IMG/VR virus record: IMGVR_UViG_3300046336_000105 | Span: 1-21,442 of that record | Strand: one strand, 5' to 3' | Source of the DNA: a virus | DNA: 21,442 nt | Part shown: piece by piece, positions 1 through 20,071 of the stretch | How positions within the stretch are numbered: the first letter of the stretch is position 1 | How the letters are laid out: each line of letters opens with the position of its first letter | Notes under the pieces: model-generated | The model's input: only the letters and a program-made list of their open reading frames with translations | What the model was told of the DNA's origin: nothing | The model's database searches: none | Program-made: the position numbers and the translations under genes

Positions 1-3000
1 ATAAAAACATTGCAGTATCTGTTATATTTTTTAATATACGTCCGAACATCTCTCCCCAACTTTCGCCATCTTTTTTGAGCATTAAAAATAATGCTGCACC
101 AATAACTGCAATTGAACCTATAATTAAAGCAAATGGACTTAGAATTGTAGTGATAAAAGTTCCAAACATTGACATAGCAGCTGGAATCATTGCCATAAAT
201 CCGGCAAATCCATTTTTTAAAGATCCCATAATTTTATCTGCACCAACGCCAGGTAAACTTTTTAATCCTTTAATTTTATTTCCTAGTGATGCTCGTCTAA
301 TATCTTTACCTTTTTTAAATTTACCTTTTCCATCTTTTTCATATTCGCCTCCACCAAAATCTAAATCTGGAATTAATGATTCGGCAGCAACCATAGCAGC
401 AAGTTTTAAGTTTGGCATTATAGATTTTTTTACAGATGATAATTTATTGCCAGCACCTTTAGCTCCGCCTTTTAATACATCTTTAGCTTTTTCACTTCCA
501 AATAAGCCAGCGGTTAAATAATTATCACCAAGCGCTCCTAAAAATCCACCAAAACCTTTAGCTCCGCCCTTTAACTTATCTTTAAAAGTTCTTTTACTTG
601 GTCCATCATCTAAACTATCAGCTCCAATTCCAGTTGTTTTTACAAATAAATTTCTCCTTTCTGATAATGCTTCAAGTGCGCTTGGTTCATTTTTTGCAAT
701 TGTTGAAAAGAAACTAGAATTATCTGGCCTACCAGTACTAAAATCAACAGCATTAGATATAGTTTCAATGGATTTTTTTAATTTCTTATTGCCTATATTG
801 TCTTTAATTCCAGAAATATCGTTAATACTATCAGCTGCATCTGCCATTTTATCAGCCGCACTTGCAACATTATTAGATCCAAATTTACCACTTTGTCTAG
901 ACCCGCCAAAAGCATTTTCATTTGAACCAGATACTCCAAGTGCATCGCTAACAATATCAGTTATTGATTCATGTCCTTTACTTCTAGACATTTGACTGTT
1001 AATGCTATCAGATCCAACTCCAACACTTGTTGCTATAGCTTGTGTAATTTTATTGTTATTTGTGCTTTCTTTAATTACATCTGATAAATCACCAATTGAT
1101 TTGCCACTTGTATTATGAAAATCAATACTATCACCAAAACTAATCTTGCCTCGACTCGCAGAATCTCCAACGGTTTCTTCAGCAAATTCAGCAAGAACTT
1201 CTTTCATAAAGTTCTTTTTTGAAGACTTAGAACTGGGAGTGTTTGGAGATGTAGAGTTTCCAGTTACAGCATCAATTATATTGTCTGATTTATTAAATAA
1301 ATGTCTAACTTTTGAAACGCCTTCAGATGCGTGCATCATTGCAGTTCCAAGAAACGCAAACGATGAATACAAGCCCATAGTTATGTTTTTAACAAATAAC
1401 ATACCAAGACCAAGTGGAGTTAATATCATTGATATGGCAGATATGTGCGCAACAGTTTGTCCAAGGTCTTGCATACTCTTACCTTCACCAAAAACATTAA
1501 AAAATTTTGACGTTTCTTCATACATTTTTTTAGCAACGTCAACAACGTCTTCAATACCTTGCCTAAAACCAATTATAAAATCTAATGTATCACCCCAAAC
1601 TCTATCTCCCAGTAATAGTTTTGCGGTTTTAATGTCTCCGTTTGCAACCTCAAGAGCTGTATTATAATCAAGAAATAAACCAACAAAATCTTCAAATTTA
1701 TCAGCAACTTTAGTTAACCATTTAAATAACCCCATATCAGTTATAAGTTGTCCAACAGATATACTTATAGATTCAAATCCAGATTTAAGTTTTTCGACTT
1801 GTCCAGTATAAGATTTAAGTCGTTCTCTTTCCATTTGAGCGGCATAACCTTTTATTTTTTCAAACTCCATAAACTCTTGTCTTGATTTCTCAAGCTCTTC
1901 AGGATCAATTGAAAGTATACGACTTAAGAATCGACGACCACGAGTTTCTGCAACCTCTTTAATAACTTTTTCCCTATCTTCTATATTTAATTTGCTAAAT
2001 CCTTGTCTTAAACTTGAAAGAACATCAAAAATATTTTTTCTATATAATGGATTTCCTTTTTGATCTCGCGCATATAAATCGGTTCCAAGTTTTTTCTTCA
2101 TAACTTCTTGAGCATCGCTACTTGACATTATACGTTCAATGAATTGGTTCATTGAAGTTCCTGAAGTTGACGCGCTCATACCGAAATCTCGCATCTTACC
2201 AGTAAAAAACGTTTGTTCTTCAAGTGTCATACCATAATCTTTTGCAGTTGAACCTGCATAGTTCATAGATATAATTAAGTCTTTTACATCAGAGTTAGTT
2301 TTATTTGCAGTAAACGATAAAGTATCGACAACTTTATTTAATGCTTCTATACTATCTCCAACTCTAAAAGTATTTTTTGCAGCAATCATTGCCGCTGCCG
2401 CATCTTCCATTGTCATGTCGTTAGCTGAAGCCATATTAATAACGCTTGGAGCTACATTTAATAATTTTTGACCTTGATAACCAGCTTTAGCTAAGATGAT
2501 TTGAGCCTTACCAACTTCAGTTGGAGAATAACGACTTGACATACCTAAACTAATAGCTTGCTTTTTATAATGATTTGCAAAACTATCTAACGTTTTTGCG
2601 CGAAGATCAGCCATAACTTGGTCAAATTGCGCAAAACTTTTAGTTGCTTTAAATCCAACATAAGCACCTGGAAGTCCTGCTGTTGCTAAACCCATAGATA
2701 TATTTTGTTGATGCATCGCAAGGCTTCTAGCTTTTGCAGACATCTTTGCATTTACACGTTCAATTTCTCTGGGAGTTTTATGAATATATTGAATAAATTT
2801 TTCTTGATTCCTTCGCATATTGCTCAACATTCTATTTTGATGAGCTGCAATATCAGCTTCATGTCTTTTAAGTTTAGAACTCATAGTTCCAACAACTTTA
2901 TCAATATTATTAACCATTGTTGGCATTTGTTGACTCATAATTTTTAGCCGTTTAGATATTTTTTCTAATACAGATGTCATTCCATCTTTAATGTTGATTG

Positions 3001-3022
3001 CACCGTTTAGTATTTGTGACAT
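1..3022 (-). CDS. Phage tail tape measure protein, N-terminal 1007 codons (runs off window start)
   Basis: I translated the minus strand from ATG at 3022 to the window edge and found no stop, so the C-terminus is missing. The protein sets tail length and lies inside the tail tube. Residues about 30-105 are helical and charged. Residues about 125-390 look like the TP901-type tape-measure core: the stretch SPTEVGKAQIILAKAGYQ (about 166-183) is followed by an Ala-rich helix and a GSTAKDYGM-type segment. A long hydrophobic stretch near residues 525-560 and a pair of likely membrane helices at about 936-981 fit a protein that may contact the host membrane. Between them is a Gly/Ser/Lys-rich linker with KGGAKG repeated. 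Its position directly after tube and chaperone genes is the normal order. The start has only a weak Shine-Dalgarno (GAG just before ATG). Confidence 0.93.
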   Translation of the reverse strand, partial: MSQILNGAINIKDGMTSVLEKISKRLKIMSQQMPTMVNNIDKVVGTMSSKLKRHEADIAAHQNRMLSNMRRNQEKFIQYIHKTPREIERVNAKMSAKARSLAMHQQNISMGLATAGLPGAYVGFKATKSFAQFDQVMADLRAKTLDSFANHYKKQAISLGMSSRYSPTEVGKAQIILAKAGYQGQKLLNVAPSVINMASANDMTMEDAAAAMIAAKNTFRVGDSIEALNKVVDTLSFTANKTNSDVKDLIISMNYAGSTAKDYGMTLEEQTFFTGKMRDFGMSASTSGTSMNQFIERIMSSSDAQEVMKKKLGTDLYARDQKGNPLYRKNIFDVLSSLRQGFSKLNIEDREKVIKEVAETRGRRFLSRILSIDPEELEKSRQEFMEFEKIKGYAAQMERERLKSYTGQVEKLKSGFESISISVGQLITDMGLFKWLTKVADKFEDFVGLFLDYNTALEVANGDIKTAKLLLGDRVWGDTLDFIIGFRQGIEDVVDVAKKMYEETSKFFNVFGEGKSMQDLGQTVAHISAISMILTPLGLGMLFVKNITMGLYSSFAFLGTAMMHASEGVSKVRHLFNKSDNIIDAVTGNSTSPNTPSSKSSKKNFMKEVLAEFAEETVGDSASRGKISFGDSIDFHNTSGKSIGDLSDVIKESTNNNKITQAIATSVGVGSDSINSQMSRSKGHESITDIVSDALGVSGSNENAFGGSRQSGKFGSNNVASAADKMADAADSINDISGIKDNIGNKKLKKSIETISNAVDFSTGRPDNSSFFSTIAKNEPSALEALSERRNLFVKTTGIGADSLDDGPSKRTFKDKLKGGAKGFGGFLGALGDNYLTAGLFGSEKAKDVLKGGAKGAGNKLSSVKKSIMPNLKLAAMVAAESLIPDLDFGGGEYEKDGKGKFKKGKDIRRASLGNKIKGLKSLPGVGADKIMGSLKNGFAGFMAMIPAAMSMFGTFITTILSPFALIIGSIAVIGAALFLMLKKDGESWGEMFGRILKNITDTAMFL

Positions 3023-3126: not shown

Positions 3127-4229
3127 TTATAGTTGTATACGTCGCGCTTCTAGCTCTTTTTTGGTTAATTCTATTATTTTTGGAATCTTATAATCTATTT
3201 CTTTATCTGACATTTGAAATATATCTAATAAAGAATGGTTTCCATATTTTATTAAAACTATTTCTCTTTCCCATAACTCCTCAAGAGTAAATACATGAAA
3301 CAAATTACTTAATACATTTATAAATCTTGGGTTTTTTAGATTAAAAAACTTGCATCATACCATGGTAGATAGTGCATAAACTTGGTTTGTAATTCTTGAT
3401 CTTCAAATTCAACAATCATATTAATTCCAGTATAGTGTTTAGCTAATTGTTCTCGCATTTTTTTTAAGTCATTTAAACATAATTTATTTAACTCTGAACT
3501 ATTTATAATAACTTTAGAAGTTTGCAGCTCTGGAACATAGTAAATTGAACTTGATAAATATGAAATAGGATCATAATTACTTTTATCTGAATTGCCTGAA
3601 AATGGAGTATCAGCAATTTGATTAAAAGCACAAGGACCAAGAATCATAAATGTAACTTGTTTGCCTCGAATATTAATTGGTCGATGTAATTTATAATAAA
3701 ACAATGAATCTTCTTGTTTGTCTGAACCTGTAAATTCAATTTGTCGTAAATCAAATTCAACTGGTACCACTCGTTCGTTATCAGTTTCAATGCTAACACT
3801 CATAATCTCGCCGCGCGAAGCAATATGTAAAAGAATATAAGCAAGAAGAACGTCTGTTTCATGATGTGAAGCAATAAAATTCTTTCGTTCGCTTTCTTTC
3901 ATTGCTTCTTTATAACCGTTACCACTTGCTGCTGGAAGCCATAGGTCCTTTCCAGCAAATTTAATACACATAAACTGGAGGATATATAGAATCTTCTTAA
4001 ATAACTTTCCACCTTCAAAATCATCTTTTACTTTTTGAGACCCAAGTAATGAAGCTAAGTCGCGATGAGTTGCGCCGTTCCAATCCTTAAATACAATTTC
4101 TTTATTTTCCGCAAAGAACAACTGTTCGCCATGATCTTTAATAGTTGTTACAATTTGCTTATAAAACTCTGGGTCTTTATCTGCAAACTTAGTTGTCCAA
4201 TCAGTATCTTCGGTAAATTTTTCTAACAT
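3127..4229 (-). CDS. Tail assembly chaperone, long (GT-like) product made by -1 ribosomal frameshift
   Basis: Ribosomes that slip back one base at T TTT TTA (3342-3348) leave the 297-residue frame after Leu296 and read 71 more codons (AAT CTA AAA AAC CCA ...) to TAA at 3127-3129. This gives a fusion of about 367 residues. The -1 frame is closed by TGA at 3355-3357 and has no ATG until 28 codons from its end, so it is hard to express in any other way. The extension is rich in charged residues and ends KKELEARRIQL. Frameshifted chaperones sit just before the tape measure gene in many tailed phages (lambda G/GT is the model), where the long form binds the tape measure protein and the short form recruits tube subunits. 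The site is seen directly; the function is inferred from position. Confidence 0.82.
3336..4229 (-). CDS. Tail assembly chaperone, short (G-like) product
   Basis: This 297-residue frame lies between the tail tube and tape measure genes, the position of lambda G, PBSX XkdN and P2 E. I do not recognise a sequence family. It is soluble-looking, acidic and mixed alpha/beta, with no signal peptide or membrane segment, and is long for a tail chaperone (many are 100-200 residues). Translation ends at TAA 3336-3338, two codons after a T TTT TTA heptamer. ATG 4229 has only a poor ribosome-binding site (AAAGATACTAAAATG), which suits a protein needed in smaller amounts than the tube. The assignment rests on gene order plus the frameshift signal. 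Confidence 0.75.
   Translation of the reverse strand: MLEKFTEDTDWTTKFADKDPEFYKQIVTTIKDHGEQLFFAENKEIVFKDWNGATHRDLASLLGSQKVKDDFEGGKLFKKILYILQFMCIKFAGKDLWLPAASGNGYKEAMKESERKNFIASHHETDVLLAYILLHIASRGEIMSVSIETDNERVVPVEFDLRQIEFTGSDKQEDSLFYYKLHRPINIRGKQVTFMILGPCAFNQIADTPFSGNSDKSNYDPISYLSSSIYYVPELQTSKVIINSSELNKLCLNDLKKMREQLAKHYTGINMIVEFEDQELQTKFMHYLPWYDASFLI
3342..3348 (-). other. -1 frameshift slippery heptamer T TTT TTA
   Basis: In the reading frame of the 297-residue protein the codons are AGT TTT TTA ATC TAA, so the heptamer has the right phase (X XXY YYZ). Starting 11 nt downstream, CAAGA (3329-3325) can pair with TCTTG (3286-3282). Inside that, TAAATGTAT can pair with ATGTATTTA over 9 bp with two wobbles, giving a candidate stimulatory stem. 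Confidence 0.82.
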
Positions 4230-4342: not shown

Positions 4343-4807
4343 TTATAATATGCTACATTCGTCATATGAAATTTTATAAGTTACTTCTGTCATTTTATCG
4401 GCACCTTGCATATCGAAATCAGGCTCAGTTCTTTCGAAGATAAAACAATTTAAGAATTGTATAGATCGCTTTTTAATTCCTGAGTTTGAAATTTGTGTAA
4501 TTACTAATGGTATATGTGTGGCCGCTAATAATCCAGGAGTTTTACCGCTTGAAGTTAATGCAAACCAAGAATCAAGTATCACAAGATTATCGCTATTGGA
4601 TGAGAATGTTAAATCTAATTCACCAGATTCAATAACTGTAGACGAAGCAACTGAAAAATCAGGAAGGTCAACTTTTTTTACTTTTCTTGATCCTTGTGAA
4701 ATTTTAATACAATCACTAATTGGTTCCTTAAACCCTTCAAATCCAACTGAAAGTATATACGAATCTTGTCTAAAAATATCTTTTCCAATTTTACCTGTAA
4801 ATGCCAT
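4343..4807 (-). CDS. Contractile tail tube protein (T4 gp19 / XkdM type)
   Basis: This 154-residue protein has the size and look of a tail tube subunit: it starts MAFTGKIGKDIFRQDSY, is beta-rich throughout, and ends with a KMTEVTYKISYD-like strand typical of tube proteins. It would form the inner rings that the sheath surrounds and through which DNA passes. It follows the sheath gene, as expected for a myovirus. AAAGGATAAAATG gives a near-ideal ribosome-binding site, fitting a high copy number. No terminator is clear after it, but a palindromic element lies downstream before the chaperone gene. Confidence 0.85.
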   Translation of the reverse strand: MAFTGKIGKDIFRQDSYILSVGFEGFKEPISDCIKISQGSRKVKKVDLPDFSVASSTVIESGELDLTFSSNSDNLVILDSWFALTSSGKTPGLLAATHIPLVITQISNSGIKKRSIQFLNCFIFERTEPDFDMQGADKMTEVTYKISYDECSIL

Positions 4808-4842: not shown

Positions 4843-7122
4843 TTATGTTCCAACCTTGACACCTTTTTTGCCAAGGGAGAAAATTAACTTTTCAATAGCA
4901 TTTGTTACAGCAACTTCAATATACACATGAGTTTCTCCAGAACCTTTAGTAATGGCATTATTATTTGTTGCATCAATTACAATAATTGCGGCATCGGAAA
5001 ATGAATAAGCATCATCTAAATGTTTACTTTTATATTGAATAAAGAAATAGTTAGTAAGTTCTGAAAGGAGAGCTGAGTATGTTACAAGGTTATTTGGCTT
5101 AAATATAAACCCTAAGTAATTCTCTCGTAAGTAATGGGTCCAATGCATCATTTGAATATAAACAGATGCAGATTTATTTTCTTCTACTGAACTTGTGGTT
5201 TTATTACCCCAAACAACATAACGTCCGCCAACCTTCTTAATGCAGTTAATTCCTCGTGGATATAAGTATTCTTGATCTAATTCTTTATTTAGTGGCAATT
5301 TAACAATATCGTTAAGGGCAAAACTAATACCAGCAGCTGGAGAGGTATATCCTTTTTTGTTATTTGAATAAGCTGCTTCAAATCCAAGAATCATTGGATT
5401 CAAAGATACAAGTTTGAGTTTTGCATTTGACTTTGGGTCGGCAATATAAACTTGTGAAGGAACATGCATAATATAACCATCTTGGCGACCAACAGAATCA
5501 ACTACAAACGCTTCAATAGAAGTTTCTGTATTCTTTGAAATGTCAACTTCACCGTAATACGAGTAACCTTTAGAATAAGTAAAATCAATGAACGCTTTTT
5601 GTACAGTTGCAGAATAAACACCGGGAGTTGCGAACTTAATAATTCCGTAATTTTCATTATAGAATTTATTAAATGTAGATGTATTAATATCTGCATGTTT
5701 CGTGTAATCAGCATCAACTACATTTGCATGACCATCTCTACCAAGTTCCAATGCATTTGTACAACTAATAGCAATTTGCGGTGTTGCACCAGCACCAGAT
5801 AAATCAGCGGCCATATCAAAACCAGGATAAATAGTAATGATTTCAAACGTATTACTTTGAACCTTATAAAATAATCGTTTATTCCCAGTTACATCAGGAT
5901 AGATTTCATGATCTTTAAGAGCATTTAATTTAAGTGGATTAACATAAATAGCAACAGTATCGGCAGCAACTAACGGAGAACCACCGCTTGTAACAGTAAA
6001 CGCTGGAACCCATTTGTTGACAGTTACTGGAGTAAATGCAACACCGTTAGTGCCAGGACCTAATGTTCCGAACTTATCGCTTGTAGCAATAAAAGCCGTT
6101 GCGCTTGAATAAGTTAGTGTAATAACTTGAGTTTCGGTTACTGAGTTACAGGTAAGGGCTAATGTTGGGTTACCAGCAATACTGTTAATTGTATAATTAA
6201 ATAATTTTGGCTTAACTGTAAGTGCAGTTAAATCAGTTGATTTTGTATATTCAGAAAAATAGTTAGCTGGACGAATTGATTCATCTTCTCGACCACCAGT
6301 CCAAGTGTCTACAGCTTCAACATAGTAGTTCGAAGCATCATCATTAATGACACTTGCCCAGTACTTTTTATCAGCAATATCAAACGAAATATTTTCAAAT
6401 ACTTTAACGATTGCATTGTCTAAATAAACATTGAGCGTAAAGTATTTTGGTTGGTCATTATTTGGAATAACTTTATAAGTTAAACCGTTTGCACCAGAAT
6501 CAAGTGTAAGATAAAATTTCTTAGAACTTGATACACCATAATCTGTTTTCATTTTCGAATCAGCATAAACTGTTAGTACGCCGGCGGTTGTGTTAGAAAC
6601 AACAACATAAGATTTTCCAGCAATACCATCAAACTCTAACTTTGCACCCTTCCATTCATCTTTCTTCCAAGTAACAACGCCAGTCGTAAGAGTTGTTTCA
6701 GTTAAATCTCCAGAAACAGAAAAATCGCTTGCATGTTTCTTAGAATGTCCACCCCAACGTCCACCGTCTTTTGCTTTGAGTTTTCCAAGTGGAGTATTTT
6801 TTACTTTACGAGCGTATAAAGTTGCCTCAGAAGGGTTTTCAGTTCCGTCTGTTACTCGACAAACAATAACTCCACCGTTTCCGCCACTGTATTTAAAATG
6901 ATGTTCTAATCCTAACGGGAGTTGTCCATCATCAATTAAATTTCCAAAAATAGTTCTATAATCATTTGCAAAACATACTGTCGCTTTACCTACAGGACCA
7001 CGTTGTGTTAATCCAGTATAAGCAGTCCAACCAAAACTTGCTGCGGTTGGAGAAGAAATTGAATCTCTAATTCTTACTTGACTACCTGGCGCATTTATTG
7101 CACCAAAAACTTTTTCTACCAT
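4843..7122 (-). CDS. Contractile tail sheath protein, enlarged
   Basis: The 759-residue protein begins like tail sheaths: a PGSQVRIRDS segment near residue 12, then GWTAYTGLTQRGPVGK (31-46), YRTIFG (55-60) and an RVTDGTE strand (about 89-95). The end also fits: SVYIQMMHWTHYLREN, then an aromatic-rich helix region and a beta C-terminus. Sheath subunits polymerise around the tube and contract during injection. At 759 residues it is longer than T4 gp18 (659) and many PBSX-type sheaths; the extra length falls in a Thr/Ser/Gly-rich, beta-looking middle (about 100-500), probably surface domains. The start has AAGGAATAATAAGCAAATG. The next gene upstream ends 8 nt before this ATG, so both are in one transcript. 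Confidence 0.92.
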   Translation of the reverse strand: MVEKVFGAINAPGSQVRIRDSISSPTAASFGWTAYTGLTQRGPVGKATVCFANDYRTIFGNLIDDGQLPLGLEHHFKYSGGNGGVIVCRVTDGTENPSEATLYARKVKNTPLGKLKAKDGGRWGGHSKKHASDFSVSGDLTETTLTTGVVTWKKDEWKGAKLEFDGIAGKSYVVVSNTTAGVLTVYADSKMKTDYGVSSSKKFYLTLDSGANGLTYKVIPNNDQPKYFTLNVYLDNAIVKVFENISFDIADKKYWASVINDDASNYYVEAVDTWTGGREDESIRPANYFSEYTKSTDLTALTVKPKLFNYTINSIAGNPTLALTCNSVTETQVITLTYSSATAFIATSDKFGTLGPGTNGVAFTPVTVNKWVPAFTVTSGGSPLVAADTVAIYVNPLKLNALKDHEIYPDVTGNKRLFYKVQSNTFEIITIYPGFDMAADLSGAGATPQIAISCTNALELGRDGHANVVDADYTKHADINTSTFNKFYNENYGIIKFATPGVYSATVQKAFIDFTYSKGYSYYGEVDISKNTETSIEAFVVDSVGRQDGYIMHVPSQVYIADPKSNAKLKLVSLNPMILGFEAAYSNNKKGYTSPAAGISFALNDIVKLPLNKELDQEYLYPRGINCIKKVGGRYVVWGNKTTSSVEENKSASVYIQMMHWTHYLRENYLGFIFKPNNLVTYSALLSELTNYFFIQYKSKHLDDAYSFSDAAIIVIDATNNNAITKGSGETHVYIEVAVTNAIEKLIFSLGKKGVKVGT

Positions 7123-11608: not shown

Positions 11609-12835
11609 TTAAGAAGTGGCAATGTTATTAACAAATACGCAAGCTTCTTCGTTTTCAACACCGAATGCAACTTTAAGATGCATTACATATTCATACGTAT
11701 CAGCATAAATATTTTGACCTTTTAAGAATCTAACTTCATTTAGGTCGTATCCAAGTAATAGATTCTTAGGATCAACAAGAACCATCATTGGGTTAGCGAG
11801 GTATGTAACTTTAACAGTTGCACCGTCAGCGATGGTGCCACCACCGTTCCGAGCAACAGTTCCAGCGGCAGAGTCAAGAACATAATCGGTTGTTACAGTA
11901 TATGGTTTTGTTTGAACGCTATCAAGAGTTGAAGATGTAACTGTAACACTAGCAGTGCTCCAGTATTTATGTTGTAGAGCTGTTGCAGTTGTACCGTTAA
12001 GAACAATATGTTCAACAATTCGTGGCTGGAAATCGAATGTCGATAATGGCATTCGACGCGCAACAGCGTTACCGATATTACCACCAACAACAGCTTGATC
12101 GCCGAGTGCGGTTAATCGTGGCATCAACTTTTCATTATATAATAGATCTAACGAAGTTGAAGTCAAAAACTTCATACTGTTACCTAATTTATGATATTTT
12201 TGTGGAAGAGTTCGGAATGCTTGTGAGAAGAGTTGTGAGCTAATAGAAGCGTTTGTTGCATTTACAATAGTTGCCGGTTTAACAACAGTTCCACCAGTTC
12301 TGAGTAATTGCTTAAACCAACCATCTTGCACTGCGAACAATTCGTCCTTAACTACGCCAGCAGAGTCACTCATTTCTGTAAAGTCTAGTTCAGAAGGTAG
12401 AGCGGCCGCGCCAAGTTTATTTCCCCAAAGAGCAATTTGCTTGAGTTCAGTTCGGAGTTTTGCTGCCATTAATTTAATAATAACATTTTCAACATCTCCA
12501 TCAACGCTTTGTTCAAACATTCTATGCGAGATTTCGAATGGAACAGTAATCCATCCAGGCTCCATAGTAATTTTGTCGTTGACTGTTTTTCGACGACGTT
12601 GTGGATCAGTTGCTTCTCTAAAAGCTAAACCTACCCGTTTTCCGGCGGCGGTTCGATGCATTTCCCAACTTGGTTCACTAAAACCTTGCGAACGAACTAA
12701 ACCAAATAACTCTTGATCTTCTTCAATAATATAAGTCCAAAGTTTCTTTACTTGTTTAGATTGTAATTTGCCGGCAGAGGCAATAGATTCTGTAGTAATG
12801 ATACTCTTTTCAAGCATTTCTTGTGATGTAGACAT
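11609..12835 (-). CDS. Major capsid protein, HK97 fold, with inserted beta domain
   Basis: This 408-residue protein forms the head shell. It follows portal and protease genes and has AAAAAAGGATAAAATAATG, the best ribosome-binding site in the region, and a strong terminator after it, all fitting the most abundant virion protein. The N-terminal arm (1-45) is helical; DPQRRRKTVNDKI (77-89), the long helix at 112-137 and the C-terminal NPMMVLVDPKNLLLG (348-362) and HLKVAFGVENEEACVF (386-401) look like the HK97 P and A domains. Residues about 280-346, containing DYVLDSAAGTVARN and ADGATVKVTY, look like a beta module inserted before the last part of the fold. The composition is less AT-biased than its neighbours. 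Confidence 0.88.
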   Translation of the reverse strand: MSTSQEMLEKSIITTESIASAGKLQSKQVKKLWTYIIEEDQELFGLVRSQGFSEPSWEMHRTAAGKRVGLAFREATDPQRRRKTVNDKITMEPGWITVPFEISHRMFEQSVDGDVENVIIKLMAAKLRTELKQIALWGNKLGAAALPSELDFTEMSDSAGVVKDELFAVQDGWFKQLLRTGGTVVKPATIVNATNASISSQLFSQAFRTLPQKYHKLGNSMKFLTSTSLDLLYNEKLMPRLTALGDQAVVGGNIGNAVARRMPLSTFDFQPRIVEHIVLNGTTATALQHKYWSTASVTVTSSTLDSVQTKPYTVTTDYVLDSAAGTVARNGGGTIADGATVKVTYLANPMMVLVDPKNLLLGYDLNEVRFLKGQNIYADTYEYVMHLKVAFGVENEEACVFVNNIATS

Positions 12836-19443: not shown

Positions 19444-19611
19444 TTATTTCTTTTTTAACGATTTGAAATAAGCTCGAATACCTTCTTCAAAACCATCATC
19501 CCACACTTCTTTTTGCTCACTTCCAACTACATATTTACATGTTTCAGATGTATCTCCAGAACCAGCTAACCAACCAGACACATAAATTATATCAATTTCA
19601 TCACTACTCAT
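19444..19611 (-). CDS. Ribosome modulation factor-like mini-protein (Rmf/CrpP type)
   Basis: I chose ATG 19611 because AAGGAAAC lies upstream; this gives 55 residues. A longer start at 19638 lies inside the HNH gene without a ribosome-binding site. The protein has GWLAG (13-17), C25 with Y27, W37, then GFEEG (40-44). E. coli RMF, also 55 residues, shows the same order: GYQAG, CPY, W, GGWREA. RMF binds 30S subunits and dimerises ribosomes to silence them. In a phage it may alter host ribosomes or have another use of the fold. It overlaps the HNH stop by 8 nt, and the terS gene starts 3 nt after its own stop. Confidence 0.6.
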   Translation of the reverse strand: MSSDEIDIIYVSGWLAGSGDTSETCKYVVGSEQKEVWDDGFEEGIRAYFKSLKKK

Positions 19612-20071
19612 AACTATTTGTTTCCTTCTTTTGTTCATAACGCTTATTAATTTCTTTTAAGTATTCTTTTTCTTGTTTTGTTAATTTAGACATTGTATTT
19701 TTTGTAATGTCGCTTATAGTCCAATTTATTTTATCGGACTTTTCGTTGTTTACGATTTTTGGAAGATAACATAAGTTATCAAAATTCCAACATTTAATAA
19801 CTTCTTCGTCAAATTGTAAATCAAATTTACAAATTGGAACTATATGATCAATGTTCCACCTTCTACAATGATCCGGGCATTGTCCAAGTTTTATTGAAAT
19901 ATGAAGCCAATCTATTTTATAATGCTTTTGACTTTTTAAATTATGTTTTTTACAAAATTTAATGAATATCCTTTTTAATTTCTTGGACTGTTTTATTGCC
20001 CAATCATAATCTTTATTTTTATAAATATCTTTTTTTGTAAGTTTTAAATTTCTATCATTTACATGATTCAT
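19604..20071 (-). CDS. HNH endonuclease
   Basis: This 155-residue protein is basic and Lys-rich, with an HNH core near the middle: NIDHIVPICKFDLQF (about 84-98), an aromatic W-N-FDNLCYLPKIVNNEKSDK pattern (about 106-125) with the last N and K as expected. It has a C-D-H-C-type pair upstream (CPDHC, about 76-80) that may bind zinc or structure. I start at ATG 20071 with GAGG 4 nt upstream; a TTG one codon earlier is less likely. Freestanding HNH enzymes next to terminase genes can aid DNA packaging in HK97-like phages, and others are homing enzymes; position next to terS favours the first but does not prove it. Confidence 0.8.
   Translation of the reverse strand: MNHVNDRNLKLTKKDIYKNKDYDWAIKQSKKLKRIFIKFCKKHNLKSQKHYKIDWLHISIKLGQCPDHCRRWNIDHIVPICKFDLQFDEEVIKCWNFDNLCYLPKIVNNEKSDKINWTISDITKNTMSKLTKQEKEYLKEINKRYEQKKETNSYE

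Follow-up and report, generated by a model that had tools for sequence, protein, structure and literature searches.

The question raised by this locus is whether the gene directly before a tape measure gene is decoded in one reading frame only or is extended, by a programmed -1 frameshift, into a longer tail assembly chaperone. The window, that is, the whole stretch of DNA analysed, comprises all 21,442 bases of an IMG/VR virus record with a GC content of 30%, and its minus strand, on which all of the features below lie, encodes head and tail proteins of a phage with a contractile tail: terminase, portal, protease, capsid, sheath, tube, an open reading frame for 297 residues, and tape measure. 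The sheath (759 residues, 4843-7122) matched PHROG_23 (1.5e-12) and resembles the sheath of Streptomyces phage BRock at its C-terminus. The tail tube gene (4343-4807) adjoins it and gave a weak gp19 match below the cut-off (PF06841, E 0.035), while the tape measure protein (2-3022), incomplete where it runs off the contig end, matched PhageMin_Tail (6.6e-33) and PHROG tape measure families. The 297-residue frame lies between the tail tube and tape measure genes, as do the genes of T4-type chaperones. Scans of IMG/VR with single proteins (the 297-residue protein, sheath, tape measure, major capsid protein, and terminase) and of GTDB genomes with the 297-residue protein and the sheath returned no close relative; the sole remote tape-measure match from the relative scans (L002) had an unrelated neighbourhood, and none of the 600 pattern matches from a gp51 alignment scan for relatives was confirmed. 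Judged by these comparisons, the window phage appears to be a very divergent tailed phage, almost without recognisable relatives.

The 297-residue frame (4229-3336) ends with CTA CCA TGG TAT GAT GCA AGT TTT TTA ATC TAA, giving a protein that terminates in YDASFLI. The slippery heptamer T_TTT_TTA (3348-3342) is in phase with this frame and is followed directly by ATC and the zero-frame stop TAA (3338-3336), which closes the short form. After a slip of one base back, the -1 frame stays open for 71 codons (3342-3130, NLKNPRF...ARRIQL) up to its own TAA (3129-3127), and it is bounded upstream of the heptamer by a TGA (3357-3355). The short form plus the extension would make a long form of about 367 residues. 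The tape measure frame starts at 3022, just past the end of the -1 frame. These coordinates, the phase of the heptamer two codons before the stop, and the limits of the -1 frame are as given in the preliminary description, made from the sequence without database searches. A +1 shift in the window was considered and discarded, as the +1 frame closes after 10 codons.

A heptamer near a gene end is, taken alone, not remarkable. The listed genes of the window contain 56 in-phase heptamers of the form XXXYYYZ, in four genes one lies no more than four codons from the stop, and the -1 extensions in these four run for 8, 1, 13, and 71 codons; only T_TTT_TTA has a long extension just past the gene end. 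At the local base composition, the probability of 71 open codons is about 0.0008. The codon-usage score of the extension, a short sequence rich in Leu, Ile, and Lys, was above 99% of true -1 frames and below 99% of real genes.

Neither the short form nor the extension gave a significant match in Pfam and PHROG scans, including the curated PF12322 model, and DUF6760/PF20546, tried as a family for the extension, had no match in the window. The family was reached by way of the sheath, whose C-terminus led to phage BRock and from there to the BRock protein encoded between tube and tape measure, which belongs to PF12322 (T4_baseplate, E 4.8e-8) and to a PHROG baseplate hub family. From BRock, the gp26 set was extended to SagM-GXN1, SP-15, LIS04, immuto, Mel-JY01, two uncultured huge phages, KVP40, P-SSM2, Bellamy, Atu_ph07, and T4, and gp26 and gp51 profiles were built in this analysis from neighbouring open reading frames. 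Against the profile of 15 gp26 proteins, the 297-residue protein scored 13.9 bits, a value reached by none of 5000 shuffles (maximum 8.5), with an hhalign P of 0.003; among 240 frames of the window it was the best, the next frame scoring 4.4 bits. Run on single sequences, hhalign lacked the power to test for a relation to four BRock-type sequences. On these profile scores, the 297-residue protein is a remote homologue of gp26 (PF12322). It also ends two codons after a conserved FF/FL motif, like the gp26 proteins of KVP40, P-SSM2, Bellamy, and Atu_ph07, and the order of sheath, tube, gp26, gp51 domain, and tape measure is common to the window and to BRock, SP-15, LIS04, and immuto. It differs from other gp26/gp51 proteins in its longer N-terminus, in falling below the Pfam cut-off, and in having no CxxC motif anywhere in its sequence; CxxC pairs occur in many but not all gp26 proteins, the C-terminal pair being also missing from those of P-SSM2 and Bellamy, and so do not define the family. 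The short form had been described as long for its class, a view that does not hold, since the gp26 members collected span 208-292 residues and 297 is not unusual beside them.

The extension scored 12.0 bits against a profile of 14 gp51 domains, with 5 of 20,000 shuffles scoring as high and the next independent frame of the window at 4.2 bits. Local alignment to the gp51 domain of Streptococcus phage SagM-GXN1 covered 47 residues ungapped (raw score 71) and to gp51 of Vibrio phage KVP40 27 residues (raw score 52), neither matched by any of 2000 shuffles, and the score summed over 15 gp51 domains was 529, compared to 376 for the next frame and exceeding all of 1000 shuffles. With an expanded profile dominated by members whose gp51 domain lies in the +1 frame, the score dropped to 7.9 bits (25 of 20,000 shuffles), indicating that the closest relation of the extension is to the SagM/KVP40 type. 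By these alignments, the -1 frame encodes a recognisable gp51-type domain. AlphaFold gave a pLDDT of 36.5 for the 297-residue protein alone and predicted the extension as helices with a pLDDT of 67; a PDB fold search with the predicted extension structure returned no match.

Within the family, KVP40, P-SSM2, Bellamy, and Atu_ph07 carry the gp51 domain in the -1 frame with an in-phase T_TTT_TTC at the conserved FF motif, while in SagM, SP-15, LIS04, LR756508, Mel-JY01, immuto, and BRock-like phages the domain is read in +1 and overlaps the stop of gp26, in many members without an early gp51 start. An alignment-based scan collected 80 cyanophage-like loci (L107-L186), 72 of them distinct at the gp26 end, counts that overstate independence because related contigs were counted separately. 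The heptamer T_TTT_TT[CT] is invariant in all 80, and every one of the 72 loci that could be assigned has its gp51 domain in -1, the motif search not deciding the other 8. In the window, the heptamer sits on the conserved FF/FL motif, and a run of T's is partly expected there from the protein alone. In the 72 distinct cyanophage-like gp26 genes, the FF pair is written TTT TTC in 71 against an expected 15%, whereas only 5 of the 81 other FF pairs in these genes are written so; the preceding codon ends in T in 72 of 72 against 47 expected from synonymous usage. Such a synonymous constraint on the cyanophage-like heptamer is hard to explain by protein conservation. In four of the loci (L168, L169, L176, and L177), the -1 frame is intact and contains no ATG, GTG, or TTG from which gp51 could start, and frameshifting would be the only evident route to gp51 there. 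The conservation seen is that of the wider gp26 family, in the form T_TTT_TTC; no close relatives of the window phage were found.

The heptamer at the homologous place, a gp51 domain in the -1 frame with no ATG before it, and a gp26-like end to the zero frame together led us to accept a programmed -1 frameshift. We consider the production of a long-form T4-type chaperone in this way to be, with high probability, the best explanation of the window locus, and the frameshift proposed in the preliminary description is supported by the gp51 domain in the shifted frame, the gp26-like zero frame, and the selection on the heptamer in homologous cyanophage-like genes. We infer slippage in the window phage, its frequency, and the roles of its products as follows. 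Most ribosomes would stop at 3336 and release the gp26-like short form, and a minority would slip one base back on U_UUU_UUA and read 71 more codons, which would give the long form its C-terminal gp51 domain. If the roles follow those of lambda gpG and gpGT (PMC5009743), the tape measure protein would be coated by the short form, with the long form recruiting the tail tube subunit. The junction had been given as SFL-NLK; on the precedent of the HIV site (PMC5009743), a mixture of SFL-NLK and SFF-NLK is expected.

The competing explanations make different use of the same sequence. In the one with the most in its favour, which we still regard as unlikely, the gp51 domain would be translated on its own as a small protein of about 58 residues beginning Met-FHVFTLEELWER, and the heptamer would merely reflect conserved Ser-Phe-Leu codons. 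It had been stated that the -1 frame has no ATG or Shine-Dalgarno sequence by which it could otherwise be expressed. An ATG indeed occurs only once, deep inside the gp51-like domain, but a TTG at 3303-3301 was overlooked, and this codon aligns with the Met of KVP40 gp51. Moreover, gp51 is annotated as a separate gene in T4-like phages, with an ATG of its own in KVP40 and P-SSM2, and although the TTG has no convincing Shine-Dalgarno sequence, with nothing beyond AAG before it, such sequences are weak throughout this genome and many ATG genes are no better provided. A separate gene, however, would not need the frame to be open all the way from the heptamer to the TTG, as it is, and the many +1-frame relatives without an early start and the four cyanophage-like loci without any argue against independent initiation.

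The T-run itself suggests two further readings, one of which is that a sequencing or assembly error removed a T from the homopolymer and split a single continuous chaperone gene. One extra T would indeed join both frames, and the window is a single metagenomic contig with no second copy. Yet the end of the 297-residue protein coincides exactly with that of gp26 proteins, at two codons past FF/FL, which argues against an indel, and the two-frame arrangement recurs in homologues from many independent genomes, making an error very improbable. Even less probable, in our estimate, is a genuine shift that arises by transcriptional rather than ribosomal slippage. The run has six T's and the protein products would be identical; six-base runs are, however, short for polymerase slippage, and the homologous cyanophage site, T_TTT_TTC in 71 of 72 with the preceding T fixed, fits tandem tRNA slippage in a defined phase.

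With ribosomal -1 frameshifting as the preferred explanation, we considered whether the heptamer has stimulators. A bipartite stem downstream (CAAGA/TCTTG) had been put forward in this role, but the downstream RNA showed no more folding stability than dinucleotide-shuffled sequence (z +0.4 to +1.2), and no Shine-Dalgarno-like stimulator was found in the sequence before the site. Downstream structures and upstream Shine-Dalgarno sequences are common companions of frameshift sites, not obligatory ones. In the cyanophage-like loci, a GAG GG(G/A) pair stands about 10 bases (10-15) upstream of the heptamer, far above background: GAG occurs in 65 of 72 compared to 29% and GGG in 32 of 72 compared to 5%. 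This element resembles a dnaX-type upstream Shine-Dalgarno stimulator and, being too far from the gp51 ATG, is probably not the ribosome binding site of gp51. The window site differs from the cyanophage-like sites in having TTA instead of TTC, no gp51 ATG, and no upstream GAGGG.

The preliminary description had likened the locus to lambda G/GT. The likeness holds for the position directly before the tape measure gene and for the logic of a rare -1 long form, but by sequence the locus is of the T4 gp26/gp51 type, and Pfam and PHROG family scans of the window gave no lambda-type gpG/gpT match. The lambda frameshift site is G_GGA_AAG. T4-type gp26/gp51 systems (PF12322 plus a gp51 domain) share with the window the homologous short form, the C-terminal domain, and the interval between tube and tape measure, and the cyanophage-like T4-type members share in addition T_TTT_TT[C/A] at the FF/FL end motif and the gp51 domain in -1. 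Frameshifting is widespread among tail chaperones (PMC5009743). The window heptamer is of the class found at the HIV and dnaX -1 sites, the HIV site being exactly U_UUU_UUA (PMC5009743), though neither a downstream structure nor a Shine-Dalgarno stimulator was found in the window. The TAC of phage Adele (Vandenendeviridae/Andersonviridae) is likewise a myovirus chaperone with a poly-T site near its 3' end and an uninterrupted -1 frame; its type of extension, also -1 and with a GTTTTT motif, has been annotated as hypothetical or overlooked (PMC12846349). These are different phage families, likened to the window by description.

In T4, gp26 and gp51 are classed as chaperones of hub assembly (PMC3004832). 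According to papers that cite it, the work of Vladimirov, Gautam and Davidson (2022) identified the T4-type chaperone genes; by these secondary accounts, some T4-like phages have one short gene and one fused long gene, with no frameshifting (PMC10885494), and poly-T shift signals were already known in T4-like TAC-N genes (PMC12846349). As far as these accounts convey, T4-type chaperones and the way they are made have been described before, and the window is a further example, unusual for its divergence. For a phage almost without recognisable relatives, it supplies a long-form chaperone that was hidden and is now correctly typed, and matching of the gp51 domain in a shifted frame can recover extensions that ordinary gene callers miss.

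Other arrangements were seen among the homologues. In 68 distinct environmental viral contigs (L027-L106, for example L029, L036, and L048), gp26 ends in FF[W/Y]P with the stop a few codons later, encoded as TTTTTTTGGCCT in 51, TTTTTTTACCCT in 6, and TTCTTTTTTCCC in 5, and the gp51 domain lies in the +1 frame, in many cases open from no more than 1-3 codons before the T-run; this gp26 end looks like a conserved, unannotated +1 frameshift site. Four BRock-like Streptomyces phage genomes (L003:10110-10345, L012:1470-1710, L013, and L014) have GAA CTC TGA/TAA TTA at the gp26 stop, and their gp51 domain, which lies in +1 and has no early ATG, is annotated as a separate short open reading frame or not at all; the CTC-stop is a candidate +1 shifty stop. 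In T4, gene 26 lies on the strand opposite to gene 51, whose product (249 residues, L026:3980-4729) looks like a gp26-like part (14.7 bits) joined to a gp51 domain at the C-terminus (13.1 bits), scores consistent with a fused long form.

We lean slightly towards the view that the gp26/gp51 family keeps short and long forms while repeatedly changing the recoding device. The proposed devices would be, for -1, U_UUU_UUC with GAGGG in cyanophage-like members and U_UUU_UUA without visible stimulators in the window; for +1, a conserved UUU_UUU_UGG or UUU_UUU_UAC in the large environmental group and CUC-stop in the BRock-like Streptomyces phages; and, in T4, separate genes. If this is true, the window is a distant, independent data point.

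Some minor observations were made elsewhere in the window. The capsid protein (11609-12835, minus strand) matches Vibrio and Streptomyces phage capsid proteins in its N-terminal part and, in a C-terminal stretch, phrog_807, a family of tail proteins with an Ig-like domain (3.5e-5). The tape measure gene has, at 2-220 (minus strand), a -1 frame that runs without a stop for about 70 codons as far as the contig edge, following in-phase T_TTA_AAA and A_AAA_AAT; this is probably chance. In a small open reading frame at 19444-19638 (minus strand), A_AAA_AAG lies in phase two codons ahead of the stop and the -1 frame continues for 13 codons, and this site is also probably due to chance.
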